This document shows positions 43,697 to 55,006 of a DNA stretch of 64,000 bases, in pieces. The stretch comes from Armatimonadota bacterium (lineage in GTDB: Bacteria; Bacillota; Desulfotomaculia; Desulfotomaculales; Nap2-2B): assembly GCA_023511535.1 (NCBI GenBank), contig JAIMBK010000007.1, positions 1 through 64,000 on the forward strand, written 5' to 3'. The notes under the pieces were generated by a model. The model searched no databases and was not told where the DNA came from. It saw nothing but the letters and a program-made list of their open reading frames with translations. Made by a program: the position numbers and the translations under genes. Each line of letters opens with the position of its first letter. Within the stretch, counting starts at the first letter, position 1.

Positions 43697-44638
43697 TTAT
43701 TCAACTTTCGGCCGCGGGTGCAGACCGGCGCGCTGCACAATCTCCGGCACCACTTCTTCCCAGGCGATCGCCATGATATGTACGCCGTGTACGCCGGGAA
43801 TATGCTCGCGGATATACCTGATTTGCTCGATGCAGATTTCCACGCCTTCTTTTTTCGGATCCTCGGCCTTCTTCAACCGCTCCACGATCTCGTCGGGCAC
43901 GATCATGCCGGACACGCTGGTCTGCAGATACTTGGCGGCCCGCCAGCTTTTTAAGGGAGTGACTCCGGCCAGAATATACGCCCTTTCGTGGAGCCCCCGC
44001 TCCCGGACCATCTCCATAAACCGCTCGAAACGCTCCATGTCGTATATACACTGCGTCTGGATGAACTCAGCGCCAGCGTTAATTTTCTTCTCCAGACGCA
44101 TCACCCGGAACTCAAAGGGATCGGCAAAGGGATTGGCCACGGCGCCGATAAAGAAGCGGGGCTCGTGTTCCTTTATTTCCTCGCCGCAGAAAAACTTCTT
44201 CTCGTCCCGCATCCGCCGCATCAGATTGATCAACTGAATGGAATCAATATCGTAAACATTTTTAGCGGTCGGGTGGTTGCCGAATTTCTGATGGTCGCCG
44301 GAGAGGCAGAGCAGATTCCTGGCCCCCAGACTGTAAGCCCCGAGCAAATCACTCTGCATGGCGATGCGGTTCCGGTCCCGGCAGGTCATCTGCACAATCG
44401 GCTCGACGCCGCAGCTTAAAATGTGCACCGCCGCCGCTATGCTCGACAGGCGGACGATGGCCGTCTGGCAATCGGTAATATTGGTGGCGTCCACGTAATC
44501 TTTCAGCATCCGGGCGTGGTGTCTGATCCCGTCGGCGGAAGCGTGCTTGGGCGGACCGATTTCCGCCGTCACCACAAATTCGCCCCTGGCCAGCAGTCTT
44601 TCCAGTTTGCTTTCCGTTTTTACTTCCCGTTCAGGCAT
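43697..44638 (-). CDS. metF: Methylenetetrahydrofolate reductase
   Basis: FVVTAEIGPPKHASADGI...ATNITDCQTAIVRLSS...QMTCRDRNRIAMQSDLLGA, NLLCLSGDH, GAEFIQTQCIYDMERFE. Confidence 0.93.
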   Translation of the reverse strand: MPEREVKTESKLERLLARGEFVVTAEIGPPKHASADGIRHHARMLKDYVDATNITDCQTAIVRLSSIAAAVHILSCGVEPIVQMTCRDRNRIAMQSDLLGAYSLGARNLLCLSGDHQKFGNHPTAKNVYDIDSIQLINLMRRMRDEKKFFCGEEIKEHEPRFFIGAVANPFADPFEFRVMRLEKKINAGAEFIQTQCIYDMERFERFMEMVRERGLHERAYILAGVTPLKSWRAAKYLQTSVSGMIVPDEIVERLKKAEDPKKEGVEICIEQIRYIREHIPGVHGVHIMAIAWEEVVPEIVQRAGLHPRPKVE

Positions 44639-45305
44639 CGATAATCACATCCTCCCTGACCGCCCGGCGCGGCCCGCCGTCCCTGGCCGTGGACCAATCT
44701 TTCGGAGGCATGATCTCCATCAGCCGCTCGAGTTTGCCCAGCGCCTTCATCCGGTCGTAAATCAACTGCCAGGCGCAATCCACGTCCCTGGCGATCTCGC
44801 ATTTACCATCCTGCGAACCGCCGCAGGGGCCGTTTAAGATGCTCTTCGAACAGCGGATGACCGGGCAGATGCCGCCCGTTAAATGCAGGATGCAGTTTCC
44901 GCACAAACCGCAACGCTCCGCCCAAACTCCCTGTTCCAGGGAACCGCCGGCAAATTTTGTGTCCAGAGCGGGGACCACCCATTTATGCGGGTAACGCTCG
45001 GCAATGTACTGCACACCCACGCCGCAGGCCAGGGAAACCACGGCATCCACATCCCCAATCAGATTATCCAGAGGGAGCAGGTATTCCGGATCACACTGGC
45101 GCGTACAGGTGAAGGTAACCGTTTCCAATGGATTCCCTTCCAGCTGGCGCTTGATGCGCAGAGCGGAAGCCAGAAATTCAGTTTCCTTTTCCCCGCCGGC
45201 CAGGCAAACGGTAACACAGCCCGCGCAACCGACCAAAAGCACTTTTTGGCAATCGTTAATCAGGCGGGCAATCTCTTCCAGCGGCTTTTGCTGAGCGACG
45301 ATCAT
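44631..45305 (-). CDS. metV: Methylenetetrahydrofolate reductase C-terminal/zinc-type MetV
   Basis: KVLLVGCAGCVTVCLAGGEKE..., CGLCGNCILHLTGGICPVIRCSKSILNGPCGGSQDGKCEI. Confidence 0.9.
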   Translation of the reverse strand: MIVAQQKPLEEIARLINDCQKVLLVGCAGCVTVCLAGGEKETEFLASALRIKRQLEGNPLETVTFTCTRQCDPEYLLPLDNLIGDVDAVVSLACGVGVQYIAERYPHKWVVPALDTKFAGGSLEQGVWAERCGLCGNCILHLTGGICPVIRCSKSILNGPCGGSQDGKCEIARDVDCAWQLIYDRMKALGKLERLMEIMPPKDWSTARDGGPRRAVREDVIIDA

Positions 45306-45727
45306 TTCTCCTCACCCTTCCTTCGTAAAGGACTGGGGCCTAGTTTTTTAATCCTTTCGGTCATCTCGTTGGCAATTTCCGCAAAACGCGGCCCCATGGC
45401 TGCCGAAAGGTTAAAAAACTCCAGCCTTTCGCTTTCCAGACCAATTTCGGCGAGTACCTTTTTGACGTAATTAACCCTCTTTTTGGCCCGGTAATTGCCT
45501 TTCAAAAAATGGCAGTCCCCTTCCATGCATCCCGCCACGTACACTCCGTCGGCACCTTTTTCAAAAGCATCCAGGATCACCCGGTGGTCAATGGTACCGG
45601 AACAGGGCATTTCCACGATCCGGATATTTGGAGGATACTGCAATCTCATTGAACCGGCCAGGTCGGCCGCCGAATAGGCACAGTAATGGCAACAAAAAGC
45701 GACGATTTTTGGCTCAAATTCTTCCAC
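45302..45727 (-). CDS. mvhD: MvhD-family hydrogenase iron-sulfur subunit (Cys form)
   Basis: EPKIVAFCCHYCAYSAADLAGSMRLQYPPNIRIVEMPCSGTIDHRVILDAFEKGADGVYVAGCMEGDCHFLKGNYRAKKRV. Confidence 0.93.
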   Translation of the reverse strand: MEEFEPKIVAFCCHYCAYSAADLAGSMRLQYPPNIRIVEMPCSGTIDHRVILDAFEKGADGVYVAGCMEGDCHFLKGNYRAKKRVNYVKKVLAEIGLESERLEFFNLSAAMGPRFAEIANEMTERIKKLGPSPLRRKGEEK

Positions 45728-45732
45728 TTTAC

Positions 45733-48700
45733 TTATGACACCTCCTCAAACAACCCGTCGACCATCCGCATAAACATACGGTCGCTGAATCCCTGCAGAG
45801 TAATGGCCTTGTTCGGGCACTCGCCGGCACAGGTACCGCACCCCTGGCACAAAACGGGTTCGATTACCGCCACGTTGTCTTTAATCCGGGGCGCGTTAAA
45901 CGGACAGAGACGGACGCAGGTAAGGCAGGCCGCGCACTTTTCCGCTTCCACCACAGCCACCACGCCCTTTGATTCGAGCCGCTCTTTGCTCAAAACCGTA
46001 CAGGCCCTGCCGGCGGCCGCTTTGGCCTGGGTAATGCTTTCCTCGATTGTTTTCGGCCCGTGCGCAAGGCCGGCCATAAACACGCCTTCCGAGGCAAAAT
46101 CCACCGGGCGCAGCTTCATGTGCGCCTCCAGGAAGAAACCATCCTCGTTTAAGGGGAGCTTAAACAGCTGGCTTAACCGGGAGTTTCCTTCCGCCGGCAC
46201 AATCGCCGCCGCCAGGCCGACGAGGTCGGCCTCGATAACCAGGGGAATGTTTAGCACGTGATCTTTTACCGTAACTTTTAAAGTGTCCCCTTCGCCCTCC
46301 ACCACCGGTTTTTCTTCCTGCCGGTAGCGGACAAAAATAACTCCTTTCTGCCGGGCTTCCTGGTATAGCTCCTCGTAAAAACCATAGGTCCGGATGTCAC
46401 GGTAAAGCACGTAAACGTTAACGGCCGGGTTTATTTTCTTCAAATCCAGCGCTATTTTCATCGACCTGGTGCAGCAGACCCGGCTGCAGTATGCGCGTTC
46501 CTGATCGCGCGAACCAACGCACTGGATCAACACAACATTTTTCGCCCCGGTCACCCGCGGGTCGCCGGCCTCCAGGGCTTCTTCCAGCTCCAGCTGGGTA
46601 AAAACGCCCGGATGCTGCCCGTACAGGTATTCCCGGGGCCTGTATTCCGCCCCGCCGGTAGCCACGATCGTCACCCCGTGCCGTAATTCCTCGCCGGTGC
46701 TTAAGACGGTCACAAAATTGCCCAGGTAACCACTCACCGTTTTGATCTCGGCACCCGGGTAGGTGTCAATCCGGGGGTGCGCGCTTACTCTGGTGACCAG
46801 ATCTTCTACGGCGGCTTGAATATTTTCGTCTCTTAGCCCGTGTTTCATTCGCCGGGCGATGCCGCCTAACGTTTCCGATTTCTCCACCAGGTGGACGCGA
46901 TAACCCTGCTCCGCCAGGGAAAGGGCGCTGGTCATTCCGGCCACCCCACCTCCGATCACCAGGGCGGATTTTGTTACCTCAATCGCCACCTGTTTTACGG
47001 GACGAAGCAGAGCGGCTTTCGCCACGGCCATCCTCACCAGATCCATCGCCTTTTGCGTTGCTTTTTCAGGAACAAACATATGCACCCAGGAGCACTGATC
47101 GCGAATGTTGGCCATCTCAAATAAACTCCGGTTCAGGCCCGCCTCCCGGATGGTTTCTTGAAAAAGCGGGCGGTGCGTGCGCGGGCTGCAGGAAGCCACC
47201 ACTACCCGGTTCAGTCCGAGTTCCGCGATTTTCTCCCGGATGCGCAACTGCGTATCCTGAGAACAGGTATACAGATTATCTTCCGCGTAAACCACGTACG
47301 GCAGCTTCCTCGCCATTTCCACCACCGCCGGCACGTTTACCACGCCGCCGATGTTTATCCCGCAGTGGCAAACAAAGACACCGATCCGCGGCTCCTCCCC
47401 ATCAACCTCCCGCTCAGGGGGGAACTCTTTTTCGGAAACCAGTTCACCGCGCGCTTCGGCCAGCAGGCTTCCGGCGGCGCCGGCAGCGGCGCTGGCCTGC
47501 ATTACCGTCTCCGGAATATCCTTCGGACCGCTAAAGGCTCCGGCCACGTAAATGCCCGGCCGGTTGGTACCGACTCCTGTCAAGGGTAGCGGGGCGGCAA
47601 AACCGTAACGGTTTAACTCCAAACCTAAACGCCGGCCCAGTTCAACAACGCCCGCGGCCGGTTCCAGACCGATGGACAGCACCACCAGATCAAATTCTTC
47701 GGTGTTCACTGTCCCGTCCTCGTCAACGTAACGGACCAACACGTTTTTATCGTTAGTCTCTTCCAGGGCATAGATGCGCGAACGGATAAACCGGACACCG
47801 GCCTCATTTTTCGCCCGTTCGTAATATTTTTCAAAACCTTTCCCATACGTGCGCATATCCATAAAGAAGATTGCCGTGTCCAGGGGTTCCTTGCTATGTT
47901 CTTTGGCGATAATCGCTTCCTTGACGGCGTACATACAGCAAACCGAAGAACAGTAGCCGTGCTCCTCCCGGTAGTTCCGGGAGCCGACGCACTGAATCCA
48001 GGCAATCTTTTTCGGCTCTTTGTGGTCGTAAGGACGCACCAGGTGCCCCTGGTAAGGCCCCGAAGCGCTTAACATCCGTTCAAACTCCAGGCTGGTCAAA
48101 ACATTGGGGTATTTTCCATACCCGTAATATTTCAACAACGAAGCGTCGAATTTTTCAAAGCCGGGGCAGAGGACAAGCGCGCCCACCGTTAGCTCCAGCT
48201 CTTTTTCGGTCATCAGATGGTCGACGGCGCCGGCCTTGCAGGCCCGCACACACTCCATACACTCGGAGCAAACACCACAGTTCAGGCAGCGCTCCGCCTC
48301 CCGGCGGGCATCTTCGAAGGTATAACCCGGGCTAACTTCAGCAAAGCTTTTCGCCCGTTCAGCCGGCCTGGCGTGTTGAACCGCGGGCGCCGCACAGACC
48401 GGGATCTCCCCTTCCTTGAACCGGAAAGAAGCCACTTCTTCGTCAGGAACCTTAAAGGTGCGTCCTTCTCTTAAGTCCCGGCCGTTCAAATAACGGTCAA
48501 TGGACTCGGCCGCCCTTTTGCCGGCCGCAATTGCCTCCACCACCGTCTTCGGGCCGGTAACCGCATCCCCGCCGGCAAATACTCCGGACACGGCAGTGGC
48601 CAGCGTTTCCGGATCGGCCGCCAGCGTGCCGCCTTTCGTTTTTTCCAGGGAAATACCTTCCAGGCCGGGCTTCTGGCCGACGGCCAGAATTACTGTATCC

Positions 48701-50181
48701 ACTTCCAGGAAAAATTCGCTCCCGGGTACCGGTACGGGCCGCCGGCGCCCGCTTTCGTCCGGCTCGCCAAGTTCGTTTCGCAGGCACTCCAGGCTGACCA
48801 GCCTCCCATTTTCACCGTGGAAAGCCTTGGGGCTGGCCAGCATTAAAAACTCTACGCCTTCTTCTTTTGCTTCGGCGATTTCCTCGGGCAGGGCGGTAAT
48901 TTCCGCCTCCGTCCGCCGGTAAACAATCGTTACTTTTTCCGCGCCCAGCCTTAAGCAACTGCGGGCGCAATCCATGGCGGTGTTTCCGCCGCCGATTACC
49001 GCCACGCGTTTGCCAACCGTCACTTTCTCGCCCAGCGCTAATTTCCGCAGCAATTCCACCCCGTGGACGACGCCGTCCAAATCCTCGCCCGGAACGTTCA
49101 CGCTCGTGCCGCGGTGGGCGCCCACCGCGACAAATACCGCCTTGTAGCCATTCGCCAGCAGACCATCAACGGTAAAGTCCCGGCCCAGCCGCTGGTTGTA
49201 TTTTATTTCCACACCCAGCTTTTCCAAAAGACCCACTTCCAGGTCAACCCACTTTTTGGGCAGGCGGTATTCGGGGATACCCACCCGCAGCATCCCGCCG
49301 GCTACGGGCAGCGCTTCCAGAACGGTTACCCGGTAGCCCTTTTTGACCAGCTGGTAAGCGCAGGAGAGTCCTGCCGGTCCCGCACCGATCACGGCCACTT
49401 TTTCTTCCCGGGGAGCGGGAAGCGTGGGTAGCGGAATCTTCTCCGGATCACTGTAAACGTAATCCGCCGCCGCTCTTTTGAGCAGCATTATCTTCACCGG
49501 CTCATCCACCCGGCTGCGATAGCACTCCCTCTGGCACGGGTGCGTGCATACGCGGCCGCAAACAGCCGGGAAGGGATTATCCCGGTAAATCAATTCCCAG
49601 GCTTCCTTAAACTTACCCAGTTTGATCAGCTGGACGTAACCCTGGGCGTTGACTTGTGCCGGGCAGGCCGCCCGGCAAGGAGAAAGACCGCGCTTATCAA
49701 TGGCGAATGCGTTTGGAAAAGCCTGGGCGTAAAGTTTATAAGCCGCTTTTCGGCTGTCTAAGCCCTGGTTGAATTCATTTTCCACGGTCACCGGGCAGGC
49801 CTGGGCACATTCACCGCAACCCGTGCACTTCTCCAGGTCGATGTAACGGGCCCGCTGCCTTACCTTTACCTTAAAATTTCCCGGCTCACCGTCAACCGCC
49901 AGCACTTCTGCGTCCGGATAGGTTTTAATGTTTAAATGGCGGCCACATTCCACCAGCTTGGGGGAAAGAATACACATGGAACAGTCGTTGGTGGGAAAGG
50001 TTTTATCCAGCATGGGCATGGTGCCTCCGATCGCCGGCGAATTTTCGATCAGGTGCACGTAGTAACCCGCCTCGGCCAGATCTAAAGACGCCTGGATGCC
50101 CGCTATGCCGGCGCCCACCACCAGCACTGCCCCAACTTTTTCAGACACAGTCACCCCTCCCTTCACTTGAGCAAAGCTCAT
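45733..50181 (-). CDS. HdrA-like tandem flavoprotein with inserted GltD/NfnB-like NAD(P)H oxidoreductase domain (1482 aa)
   Basis: HdrA motifs ([55 protein letters not shown]), internal GltD-type segment ([18 protein letters not shown]...[15 protein letters not shown]...[28 protein letters not shown]...[22 protein letters not shown]), second HdrA half. Confidence 0.93.
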   Translation of the reverse strand: [1482 protein letters not shown]

Positions 50182-50194
50182 TTTCTTTTCTTGC

Positions 50195-51034
50195 TTAGTA
50201 TTCGGGCGGTAGTTTGTTCAACTGGGCTTTTGAGAAGACCGGCCCGTCTTTGCAGACAAATTTGTTCCCCACGTTGCACCGGCCGCACATTCCGATGCCG
50301 CACTTCATCCGGTTTTCCAGGGACAGAATAATCCGCTCCGGCGGGAAGCCCAGTTCTTCCAACACCGGAATAGTAAACCGGATCATTACCGGCGGGCCGC
50401 AGACTACGGCGTAGGCGTCAGCGGAGCTGGGCGCCACTTCTTTGGTCACTGCCGGCACAAAGCCCACCTTCTTCTGCCAGCCGTCGGCAGGGGCGTCAAT
50501 TGTGCAGATCAGGTTTATGTCGGAGCGCTTCTCCCACCCGGCTAACTCGTCTTTGTACAGCAGCAGGCCCGGATTGCGCGCCCCGTAAATAACGGTCAGC
50601 TCGCCGAAATCCCCCCGGTTGTCGGGATGTAGAATGTAAGTGGTCAGCGACCGCAGGGTGGTAAAGGCAAAACCGCCGCCGATAATCACCAGGTTTTTGC
50701 CTTTGAACTCCTCCAGCGGATAGCTGTTGCCCAGCGGCCCCCGCACCCCCAGAATGCTTCCTTCCGGCATCTCGTGCAGAGCACTGGTGACCACCCCCAC
50801 GCGGGCCACGGAAAATTTCAAAATGCCGGGCTCCGTAGGCGAAGAAGCCATCCCGAAAGGAGATTCCCCTTTGCCGAAAACGCAAACCTCCGCAAATTGC
50901 CCGGGTCTGTATACAAAAGCTTTTTCGTCCTCTTCCTTTAAAAACTGGAAAGTAAAGGAATGAATCAGGTTGTCGTCAGTCTCCACGACATGCCTGACCA
51001 GCTTTACCGGCGCCGGCACGTACGGATTTTTCAC
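50195..51034 (-). CDS. flxA: FAD/NAD(P)-binding oxidoreductase, FlxA/sulfhydrogenase gamma-like
   Basis: YRPGQFAEVCVFGKGESPFGMASSP, VRGPLGNSYP, IGGGFAFTTLRSLTTYIL, CGIGMCGRCNVGNKFVCKDGPVF. Confidence 0.85.
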   Translation of the reverse strand: MKNPYVPAPVKLVRHVVETDDNLIHSFTFQFLKEEDEKAFVYRPGQFAEVCVFGKGESPFGMASSPTEPGILKFSVARVGVVTSALHEMPEGSILGVRGPLGNSYPLEEFKGKNLVIIGGGFAFTTLRSLTTYILHPDNRGDFGELTVIYGARNPGLLLYKDELAGWEKRSDINLICTIDAPADGWQKKVGFVPAVTKEVAPSSADAYAVVCGPPVMIRFTIPVLEELGFPPERIILSLENRMKCGIGMCGRCNVGNKFVCKDGPVFSKAQLNKLPPEY

Positions 51035-52050
51035 TGCTGATCACCCCCGGCTTGACTGATCTGCTCGATTACCTGGCGGATGTCAAGATTCACCGGGCAG
51101 CTCAAAATACAGCGGCCGCACCCCACGCAGGCAATCGTCCCGTAGTTATCCACAAAGTACTTGAATTTATGCATGATTCGCTGCCGAAACCGTTCCTTAC
51201 CCGTCGGGCGGGGGTTGTGACCGGAGCCGTGGAGGGTAAAGAGCGGGAACATGCAGGCGTCCCAATTGCGGATCCGGCAGCCTTCCTTGCCGGCCGCCTC
51301 GTCGACGATGTCAAAACAGTGACACGTGGGACAGGTGTAAGTACAGGCAGCACATCCCAGGCATTTCTCGGCGAGCAGGGCCCAGATTGGATCGTCAAAA
51401 TTAACGTCCAGCCGGTACTTCAACCCTCCCAGGTCAACCAGGGTGGAGCAGACAGCGCTCTCTTTAACCGCCCGGGCGGCTTCCTGCGCTTCCTGGCCGG
51501 CGACAGGCAGTTCCATTCCAGAAAGCAATTCTTTGCCCCGCTCCGTTACCACCTCCACCAGGTATTGGTCACCGATGTCCACAAAGAGAAGATCCAGGCC
51601 TTCGGCGGAAAAGGGACCGCCGCTCAGGGAGGTGCAAAAACAGGTAGCCGCCGGCTGATTACACCCCAGTCCCACCAGGACGGTATTGTTTCTTCTGGTC
51701 AAGTAGTACGGGTCCACGTACTGATCTCCGTTAAAAACCTTGTCCAGCAAAAGAAAACTTTTGGCGTCGCAAGGTCTTACCCCGACGACGACTTTCTTGC
51801 TTTCGTCAACCTGCTCTGTTAATTGCACGCCGCCGGTTTCACAGCGATAGCAGAAGAGCTTCTCCGAACGGGGGAAAAGAATCTCTTTGGGCGGAATCCT
51901 GGAATTGGTATAATTCAGGACTGCCTGCTCGCCGGATCTGATTTGTTGAAAGCAAAAATAATCACCTTCTTTGACCGGAGCAAATACCTGGTAAGCCGGT
52001 ATTAATTTATTTAACCAGCTGGTTATCTGGTCCTTATTTAAAAGCAACAC
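51031..52050 (-). CDS. flxB: 4Fe-4S protein, FlxB/sulfhydrogenase beta-like
   Basis: VGVRPCDAKSFLLLDKVF, CLGCAACTYTCPTCHCFDI, CVGCGRCILSCPVNLDIRQVIEQI. Confidence 0.83.
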   Translation of the reverse strand: MLLLNKDQITSWLNKLIPAYQVFAPVKEGDYFCFQQIRSGEQAVLNYTNSRIPPKEILFPRSEKLFCYRCETGGVQLTEQVDESKKVVVGVRPCDAKSFLLLDKVFNGDQYVDPYYLTRRNNTVLVGLGCNQPAATCFCTSLSGGPFSAEGLDLLFVDIGDQYLVEVVTERGKELLSGMELPVAGQEAQEAARAVKESAVCSTLVDLGGLKYRLDVNFDDPIWALLAEKCLGCAACTYTCPTCHCFDIVDEAAGKEGCRIRNWDACMFPLFTLHGSGHNPRPTGKERFRQRIMHKFKYFVDNYGTIACVGCGRCILSCPVNLDIRQVIEQISQAGGDQQ

Positions 52051-52071: not shown

Positions 52072-53010
52072 CTAGGTTAAACTGATCGGAGCAGCCAGCG
52101 GAGGCTTTTCTTCCAGACTGACTCCGGCGGTATAACCAAACACCTCCTGAACGTCCTTCGTCATTTTACTGGTTAAAACATGTAAATTAATCCCCATCGG
52201 ACAGGCCCGGTCGCAGGCCCCGCAGTCCACACAGCGCCCGGCCAGGTGAATCACCCGGACGGCCTGGAAAAATACGTTGTCCTGAACATTTAAGGACGAT
52301 CTGCTGAGCCATTCGGGTACGGAGCAATCGGCAAAACATTCTTCGCAAAAGCACATGGGGCAGGCCTGCCGGCAGGCGTAGCAACGAATGCAACGGGACA
52401 ATTCGGCAAACAGGTAAGCCCGCTTTTCGGCCGGCGCCTTTGCTTCCCAATCCACTTCGCCGGCTTTGGATCTGGAGTCGGCTCCTTTGGCGGGAACCGG
52501 CTCACCCAGCAGGATGTCATATAACACCGGATTGGGGTGCGGACAGGTTAAACACGAATCGTGGAGCAATTGCTCCAGAAGGACGGTCTCCTGAAAATCC
52601 CTTCCTTTCAAACGAACCTGTCCGTCATTTACTTCCGCCTCCAGCAATTCCTTTCCCGCCAAAAGACGGTTTACTTTCCGGCGATCAATCATTCCCCGGC
52701 AGGGTACACCGATGATCACCAGCTTTTCGCGGTTAATCTGGTTTTCTTTGATCAGCTCCACGATCGAGCGACTGTCGCAACCCTTGGCCACCACGGCCAG
52801 CTTTTCCGGCCTCCGGCGTAAAAATACGGCCAGGTTGTTTTCGCAGCCGTAGCCCCAGACCAGGTTTTGCGCCTCGTGCGGCCGGCGGATAAAGCAGGGC
52901 GTGTTGCGCAAAGGAAGACTCCCGGCGGCAAACCCTACCACCAGCTCCACTTCTTTATCCCGCAAAAGCCTTTCGGCCGTTTCCTGAATCGCCCCCGTCA
53001 ATTCACGCAC
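52072..53010 (-). CDS. flxC: 4Fe-4S protein, FlxC-like
   Basis: VVAKGCDSRSIVELI, CIRCYACRQACPMCFCEECF, CVDCGACDRACPMGINLHVLTSKM. Confidence 0.8.
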   Translation of the reverse strand: MRELTGAIQETAERLLRDKEVELVVGFAAGSLPLRNTPCFIRRPHEAQNLVWGYGCENNLAVFLRRRPEKLAVVAKGCDSRSIVELIKENQINREKLVIIGVPCRGMIDRRKVNRLLAGKELLEAEVNDGQVRLKGRDFQETVLLEQLLHDSCLTCPHPNPVLYDILLGEPVPAKGADSRSKAGEVDWEAKAPAEKRAYLFAELSRCIRCYACRQACPMCFCEECFADCSVPEWLSRSSLNVQDNVFFQAVRVIHLAGRCVDCGACDRACPMGINLHVLTSKMTKDVQEVFGYTAGVSLEEKPPLAAPISLT

Positions 53011-53438
53011 TTCTCTAACCCCCCCGCATCTTTCGCGCCCAGTGGGTTGGGACCCAGCGCCTTCAGCTGATTGGTGAAATCAGTTGCTATTTCCGCAAAC
53101 CGGTCCCCCTCCGAGGCGGAAACCCATTCCAGCCGGAACCGCCCGGGTTCAATGCCCAGCGTTTGCAGGTGCCGCTGCACGATCCTGGCGCGCCTTTCGG
53201 CGTTATAATTGCCACTAACATAGTGGCAGTCCCCGGGGTGTCACCCGCCGACCAGCACGCCGTCCGCGCCGGTGAAAAAGGCTTTCAGGATAAACATAGG
53301 GTTAACCCTTCCCGAGCAGGGCACTCTGACGACCGTTACGTTCGGGGGATACTGAAAACGCAGGGACCCGGCCAGGTCGGCGCCGGCGTAACTGCACCAG
53401 TTACAAAGAAAGGCGATTATTTTTGGTTCAAATTGCAT
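52998..53438 (-). CDS. flxD: FlxD/MvhD-family iron-sulfur subunit, probable selenoprotein (in-frame UGA at 53243..53241)
   Basis: [95 protein letters not shown]...; UGA aligns with Cys of ORF 45302..45727 (VAGC-MEGDCHF). Confidence 0.88.
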
Positions 53439-53530: not shown

Positions 53531-54421
53531 TTATTCTTTCCTGACCCTGTCGATAAAACTCCTTACGTTCGTCTCGGCCAGCCCGGCCACCTGCTCCGGA
53601 TCGGCACCCAGACACAGCGCCAGAAGCTGCATATAGTGCAAAACGGGAATCTCAAATTTAATTTTCTTGTCTTTTTGCAGGAATTTCTGGGCGGTGTCAA
53701 ACTGCAGCAGGCAAGAGCTGCAACCGGTCACCAGCAGGTCGGGGTTAACCTCTTCCTTCATGGAAACAAGCTTTTTCTCCACCAGATGGAAGGATTTTTC
53801 CATGTCGGCGCTCCGCATGGCGCCCATCCCGCAGCAATCGAGCAGGCGCGTATAGTAGCCAACGGTTGCCCCCAGGGCTTCACACATTTCTTTTAACACC
53901 CGGGGGTGAAAGGTATCTTCTTCCTTATCGAAATATACCTTGCTGGGCCAGAGGCTATGGCAGCCCGGCTGCAGGGCGATGGTAAAACCATCGAGTTTAT
54001 ATTTAAGGGCCTCCCTGATTCTGTCCGGACCCAGTTCGTGATCCAGATAATAGTGAGCAAGCCTGACCTGGCTGGTCCCCTTATATTCCCGGCCGATATT
54101 CCGGAGGAGTTCGTTAACCCTGGTTTTTAACTCCGGGTCGTGATCCAGCTTGTATTTTGCCTCGGCCAGGCTGCCGTAACAACTCCCGCAGACAGTAACA
54201 ATATCCAGCCCCTTTTCCTCGGCGAGGGCAAGATTCCTGGCTCCTACGGCGCACCAGCCCGCCACATCCACGGAAGGCAGCGTCCCCCAGCTGGGGCAGC
54301 AGGACTGCCCATCCAGGTTATCCAGTTCCACCCCCAGGGCGGGAAGCGCATACCGCACCGCCTGCTCGAGATCGGGCCGGTTAAAGGCTGTGTTGCAGCC
54401 GACAAAAAACCCTATTTTCAT
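53531..54421 (-). CDS. hdrB: Heterodisulfide reductase subunit B
   Basis: IGFFVGCNTAFNRPD, CCPSWG, CGSCYGSLAEAKY, LQPGCHSLWPSK, CCGMGAMRSA, CSSCLLQFD. Confidence 0.92.
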   Translation of the reverse strand: MKIGFFVGCNTAFNRPDLEQAVRYALPALGVELDNLDGQSCCPSWGTLPSVDVAGWCAVGARNLALAEEKGLDIVTVCGSCYGSLAEAKYKLDHDPELKTRVNELLRNIGREYKGTSQVRLAHYYLDHELGPDRIREALKYKLDGFTIALQPGCHSLWPSKVYFDKEEDTFHPRVLKEMCEALGATVGYYTRLLDCCGMGAMRSADMEKSFHLVEKKLVSMKEEVNPDLLVTGCSSCLLQFDTAQKFLQKDKKIKFEIPVLHYMQLLALCLGADPEQVAGLAETNVRSFIDRVRKE

Positions 54422-54424
54422 TCG

Positions 54425-55006
54425 CTACACCTCGCAAGTCTCGCTTACGCCCGTCTCGCCCATAGGGATAATCCCCAGGTCGGCCAGGGCGGAATTCCGG
54501 ATAATTGTTTGGAGTTCCTGTAAAGCCTTTTTGCTGGCGACCGTAGAGGGCGGCTTTTCCGGCAGGCCCACTTTCGCCCGCGTATTTCCTGCGCCGGCCA
54601 GATAAACGGCATGGCCGGTATCGTAAAGCGACTTCAGGCCTTCCACGGAAAGGGTGGGCAGGGCAAATTCCCTGATCGCCACCCGGCGCATGGCCTGAAC
54701 AACCTCAAAAGGATTAACCTCCCGCGGACACACTTCGGTGCAACGATTGCAAGACTGGCAGGCCCAGATGCTTGAGTCGTCCAGCAGTTCCTCGCGCAGC
54801 CCCAAAAGAATCGCGTGAATCACTTTTTTATTAAAAAAGGAAAAGCCAGCCAGCACCATCGGGCAGGCGGCGGCGCACTTGGCGCACTGGATACATTCCA
54901 GCAATTCCGCACCGCCCAACTCTCTGATTTCTCCCGCCAGAGCGGGATCGCCCGCCGAGAGATTAACAACTCCCGTTACCGCTTGCATCTCAGACACTAA
55001 TCTCAC
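54425..55006 (-). CDS. hdrC: Heterodisulfide reductase subunit C
   Basis: CIQCAKCAAACPMVLA, CQSCNRCTEVCPREVNPFEVVQAMRRVAI. Confidence 0.92.
   Translation of the reverse strand: MRLVSEMQAVTGVVNLSAGDPALAGEIRELGGAELLECIQCAKCAAACPMVLAGFSFFNKKVIHAILLGLREELLDDSSIWACQSCNRCTEVCPREVNPFEVVQAMRRVAIREFALPTLSVEGLKSLYDTGHAVYLAGAGNTRAKVGLPEKPPSTVASKKALQELQTIIRNSALADLGIIPMGETGVSETCEV

Follow-up and report, generated by a model that had tools for sequence, protein, structure and literature searches.

The window analyzed here is a stretch of 64,000 nucleotides (contig JAIMBK010000007.1, positions 1 to 64,000), and the genes of interest lie on its minus strand in the order hdrA-hdrC-hdrB-flxD-flxC-flxB-flxA (Table 1). 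Profile matches and the conserved gene order bear out the initial annotation in calling this a FlxABCD-HdrABC-like operon. The closest relatives with the same in-frame UGA in flxD keep this hdr-flx order (L052, L211, L212), and more distant ones have the rearranged order hdrC-hdrB-hdrA-flxD-C-B-A. Directly downstream of the flx genes, at 43697-50181, there is a MetF-MetV-MvhD(Cys)-HdrA cluster. Its HdrA is 1482 aa long with an inserted glutamate-synthase-like domain recognized by eye, and is about the size reported for the HdrA of Moorella (PMC9430772).

Table 1. Features of the hdr-flx locus and of the paralogous mvhD in the window
Feature	Coordinates	Strand	Basis or remark
hdrA, 669 aa	55016..57025	−	NF040770, 810 bits; conserved beside flxD in relatives
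hdrC	54425..55006	−	TIGR03290, 104 bits
hdrB	53531..54421	−	TIGR03288, 241 bits; PF02754 CCG
flxD/mvhD	52998..53438	−	One gene, 146 codons plus terminal UGA, predicted Sec at codon 66
In-frame UGA, predicted Sec66 codon	53241..53243	−	UGA in 63 homologs, Cys in 117/181
bSECIS hairpin UGCCACUA-UGU-UAGUGGCA	53210..53228	−	8/8 pairs in 63/63 UGA genes; fits bSECIS model
flxC-like Fe-S/FrhB_FdhB_C protein	52072..53010	−	Conserved order
flxB-like Fe-S protein (sulfhydrogenase-beta/AsrA-like)	51031..52050	−	NF040829, 208 bits; conserved order
flxA-like FAD/NAD(P)-binding protein	50195..51034	−	PF00175, PF10418; NF006220, 212 bits
Paralogous mvhD, Cys at the aligned position, beside MetVF	45302..45727	−	PF02662, E = 5 × 10−54; 52% identity

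The main point of interest is flxD, which ORF calling with the standard table 11 cuts in two, as the initial annotation had foreseen. Read from 53438 to 52998, the frame has 65 codons in all from its ATG, a UGA at 53243-53241, 80 further codons, and a terminal UGA (codon 147, 53000-52998) that overlaps the start of flxC, the GTG of which at 53010 gives an overlap of 13 nt with the end of flxD (52998-53010). The 2 ORFs, 53241-53438 and 52998-53180, had been proposed to lie in one frame and they do so, with the UGA as the sole interruption; the second begins at an internal GTG and is without standing of its own. Read through, they make up a single PF02662 protein with E = 3 × 10−55 and 185.9 bits against a curated cut-off of 22.3, matching at residues 7-129 over positions 1-123 of the 123 in the profile, so that the homology extends to either side of the UGA. 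The read-through product also matches NCBIfam VhuD and the MvhD part of HdrA2. It was also correctly noted that the UGA falls on a paralog Cys, which is present both in the paralog of the window and in about 100 homologs. From the sequence, the apparent stop is almost certainly read as selenocysteine (Sec), giving one intact electron-transfer protein.

To place this UGA among its relatives, homologs were searched in 398 genomes comprising the phylum, the same family, and named MAGs. A UGA is found exactly at codon 66 in 63 distinct genes, spread over 27 families of the phylum plus a Desulfovirgula MAG and a Peptococcaceae MAG, and in the phylum survey every TGA-bearing gene that was fetched has its TGA at this codon. 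Across the 181 genes compared, codon 66 is Cys in 117 and Ala in 1, so Cys or Sec occupies the position in 180/181. The exchange can also be seen within one genus. Genomes G001 and G003 have UGA66 with an intact hairpin (the RNA element described below), and G004 of the same genus has UGC at codon 66, one broken hairpin pair, the same hdr-flx operon, and 88-89% identity in flxD; as gene entries, this comparison sets G004:C50 (L168) against L166 and L167. The G004 gene fits a recent change from Sec to Cys that left a SECIS remnant, a course described for other genes (PMC1794560). A protein tree made by a quick method on 131 columns needs about 12 changes between UGA66 and Cys, and since its strongly supported branches force only 2 of them, no number of switches is claimed from it.

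Outside this group, Desulfobacterota MvhD genes have UGA66 but different hairpins at shifted positions, and in Asgard archaeal genes both codon 15 and codon 66 are UGA, without a hairpin at +15 to +33. The SECIS of Asgard archaea has been placed in the 3' UTR (PMC11227280). By the look of these genes, other lineages use the same residue 66 with other signals.

Downstream of UGA66, the mRNA has an 8 bp stem with a 3-nt UGU loop, as proposed in the initial annotation, and folded alone it has −10.1 kcal/mol. The published bSECIS model (PMC13188914) asks for a loop of 3-9 nt, a stem of 4-16 bp, a distance of 16-37 nt from the UGA, G in one of the first 2 loop positions, and a minimum free energy of −7.5 or lower. 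The hairpin of the window lies within every one of these limits, with G as the second nucleotide of the loop and its apical loop 20 nt downstream of the UGA, a distance already judged suitable when the hairpin was first noticed. An Rfam scan of the region gave no match to a SECIS family, and the Rfam hits that it did give there are attributable to chance. As a control, the stretch after the terminal UGA folds at −10.3, but into a long imperfect stem that includes the UGA itself and is not SECIS-like.

Taken on the window sequence alone, the hairpin is only modestly unexpected, as it also arises in 1.1% of sequences that encode the same peptide with synonymous codons. This is a weak signal, and therefore the comparison across genes carries the case. 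All 8 pairs are present in 63/63 UGA66 genes, always spanning +15 to +33 as counted from the U of the UGA, versus 0/102 of the Cys66 genes that align without gaps across the hairpin, a difference far beyond chance. Nine sequence variants of the hairpin occur among the 63, and the stem substitutions, found in 8/63, are only from Watson-Crick to G-U and so preserve the pair as a wobble. Because the 63 genes are related, these counts are not independent; their weight lies in the spread over 27 families with no broken stem. The loops are UGU, UGG, or UGC, with UUC in the remaining 3 genes (L166, L167, L190), where the Ser codon is TCT, the first 2 loop positions lack G, and the stem is fully paired. 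Hence the bSECIS model does not cover every case, as these 3/63 relatives fall outside it.

Codon 75 is AGT (Ser) in 63/63 UGA66 genes, whereas the Cys genes have Ser in 26 and AGT in 2/102, and codon 73 is TAT in 63/63 versus 47/102. This pattern points to a constraint that acts on the RNA and not on the protein.

The genome assembly (3.18 Mb in 136 contigs, 92% complete) was then asked for Sec machinery, which had been named as a check on the initial annotation, and selA, selB, selC, and selD are all present. The selB gene (385 bits) adjoins selA on contig 44, and contig 71 has both selD and the tRNA-Sec with anticodon UCA, which is selC. Further selenoprotein genes were sought family by family. 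SelD is itself one of them, with UGA at the catalytic position (SGUAAK) and a hairpin downstream, and an FdhA gene has UGA at its catalytic position (TUHAP) with a downstream hairpin having a GGUCU loop. There is also a second MvhD (contig 67:4217-4588, L169) with UGA at codon 15, in a CxxU motif, and Cys at codon 66. It lies directly after an HdrA-like gene and is present in genomes of the same family too, so the family of the window has a distinct paralog with UGA at codon 15 instead of 66.

A separate observation concerns contig 120, where positions 2052-2143 (L010:1501-1592, L225) encode a tRNA-Sec-like gene with the Cys anticodon GCA, scoring 51 bits against the Rfam tRNA-Sec model. It has an 8-bp acceptor stem, a long variable arm, an encoded CCA, and A at position 33, was missed by ARAGORN, and lies 30 nt upstream of an ORF for a YedE selenium transporter (493 bits). 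Homologs are found in 7 other genomes of 199, most of them called tRNA-Cys(GCA) by ARAGORN. In G014 and G061, the homolog is about 2 kb before mvhD, and an hdrA-mvhD pair was read in G014.

Putting these findings together, we consider flxD to be a bacterial selenoprotein gene with SelB/SECIS decoding of UGA66, its product being the linker of HdrABC-FlxABCD, with a probability of about 0.97. The unity of the gene, the conserved UGA/Cys exchange, the conserved SECIS, the Sec machinery, and the operon are established, and from them the events at the ribosome can be proposed: SelB carrying Sec-tRNA-Sec would bind the hairpin and insert Sec at UGA66, and translation would then run on to the second UGA that overlaps the flxC start.

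The alternative that survives best adds to Sec decoding and does not replace it. The UGA could also be a selenium-responsive switch, in which FlxD without selenium ends at residue 65, flxC is translated less, and the Cys paralog takes the place of FlxD. The overlap with flxC goes along with this, since translation of flxC could also be lower if UGA66 were left undecoded, and there is the existence of the paralog and the selenium-dependent isoform switching of Methanococcus (PMC11097638) to consider. However, the paralog belongs to the MetVF cluster and, at only 52% identity, may serve another complex, so we regard such a switch as rather improbable. Far less credible is that this organism has UGA reassigned to a standard amino acid (Trp or Cys), or that it suppresses UGA with no involvement of selenium. 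Several genes of the genome do have a read-through UGA, but flxD itself terminates in UGA, the genome has tRNA-Sec(UCA), selA, and selB, the UGA sites are catalytic or Cys-equivalent positions of known selenoproteins, and the aligned residue is Cys and not Trp; we give this reading hardly any weight. Another reading takes the UGA for a genuine stop or for an error of sequencing or assembly, leaving a pseudogene or 2 ORFs. It has in its favor the split made by standard ORF calling but is refuted by conservation and has next to no chance of being right. Independent genomes from many families share this UGA, which excludes the sequencing error for which a check had been advised; the frame is undamaged, the hairpin is invariant and confined to UGA genes, and a 65-aa product would be broken, as it would end before the conserved Cys71.

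Returning to FlxD as a Sec-containing linker, the next question is where the Sec would sit. The AlphaFold model has a mean pLDDT of 87 and matches MvhD of PDB ID: 5ODH (5ODH_D) with E = 4 × 10−20, a TM score of 0.84, and 57% identity. Its strands are E7-12, E34-39, and E60-65, with C12/C15, C41, and U66/C71 each following the end of a successive strand, so that the model has Sec66 immediately past the third beta strand, on a Cys-rich edge made of C12, C15, C41, U66, and C71. FlxD retains Cys at 12, 15, 41, and 71, with Sec predicted at 66; across the 181 genes, C12, C41, and C71 hardly ever or never vary, and a few genes have another residue in place of C15. Because of the strand-end placement in the model and the Cys or Sec in 180/181 genes, residue 66 would lie at the [2Fe-2S] cluster site, possibly as one of the ligands.

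In the mechanism that we propose, FlxD is the predicted [2Fe-2S] linker subunit of the HdrABC-FlxABCD complex and would hand electrons from the NAD(P)H-oxidizing FlxABC module to HdrA, where an FAD is the expected point of bifurcation, with a high-potential acceptor on one branch and ferredoxin on the other. Sec66 is probably a cluster ligand or the neighbor of one, next to and perhaps on the cluster that feeds the bifurcating HdrA. The stronger version, in which Sec66 is itself a ligand, is one that we hold tentatively, at somewhat under even odds. In that case, families of Bacillota by the dozen, together with Desulfobacterota and Asgard archaea, would naturally make an Fe-S cluster with a selenolate ligand as part of the linker of an electron-bifurcating complex, its potential tuned by Sec/Cys exchange.

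These findings repair a gene split by annotation, and they would make selenium a requirement for a subunit central to electron transfer in many anaerobes. Conservation of the SECIS is strict enough to fix codons and even amino acids (Tyr73, Ser75). The Sec/Cys siblings within one genus offer a natural comparison, and with residue 66 at the cluster-binding edge, what Sec does in an Fe-S electron carrier can be put to the test.

The initial annotation knew MvhD/VhuD selenoproteins from methanogens. The family is indeed a known one, but it is not limited to them, as bacterial members including those of Firmicutes have been on record since 2006 (PMC1794560, PMC2702500). The first of these papers lists Sec-FrhD/MvhD in the Firmicutes/Clostridia Moorella thermoacetica, Carboxydothermus hydrogenoformans, Desulfotomaculum reducens, and Syntrophomonas wolfei, and in Syntrophobacter too; the second has Sec-MvhD in Desulfobacterium autotrophicum. 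The Firmicutes entries of 2006 may well be of the same codon-66 kind. In the literature searched, mostly without subscription papers, we found no description of the codon-66 position or of the invariant SECIS for bacterial FlxD. The flxD of the window is a very well supported addition to an already known selenoprotein family, and no priority is claimed.

With the Sec-FrhD/MvhD/VhuD proteins of bacteria and archaea (PF02662), flxD has in common the family, the Sec/Cys exchange, and the operon with HdrA. A 2026 review (PMC13188914) gives the motif as CxxU with 2 Sec in its representative sequence, which agrees with the pairing of UGA codons 15 and 66 in the Asgard genes. Its CxxU corresponds to codon 15 here, whereas the flxD of the window would have Sec only at codon 66 (U-x4-C). 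The FlxABCD-HdrABC of Desulfovibrio vulgaris (Ramos et al. 2015, as cited in PMC6687939) is presented there with the same gene set, namely, HdrABC with NAD(P)H-binding FlxA, Fe-S proteins FlxB and FlxC, and an MvhD-like FlxD; relative to that account, the difference in the window is the predicted Sec at residue 66. The MvhD/ElpC chains of solved Hdr complexes (5ODC/5ODH, 7BKB, 8RVU) have the same fold, 56-62% identity over the chain, and the 5 Cys aligned, and MvhD/ElpC carries a [2Fe-2S] cluster beside HdrA (PMC12350162). All of the solved chains aligned have Cys at residue 66 (Cys67 in 5ODC numbering), where FlxD of the window would have Sec.
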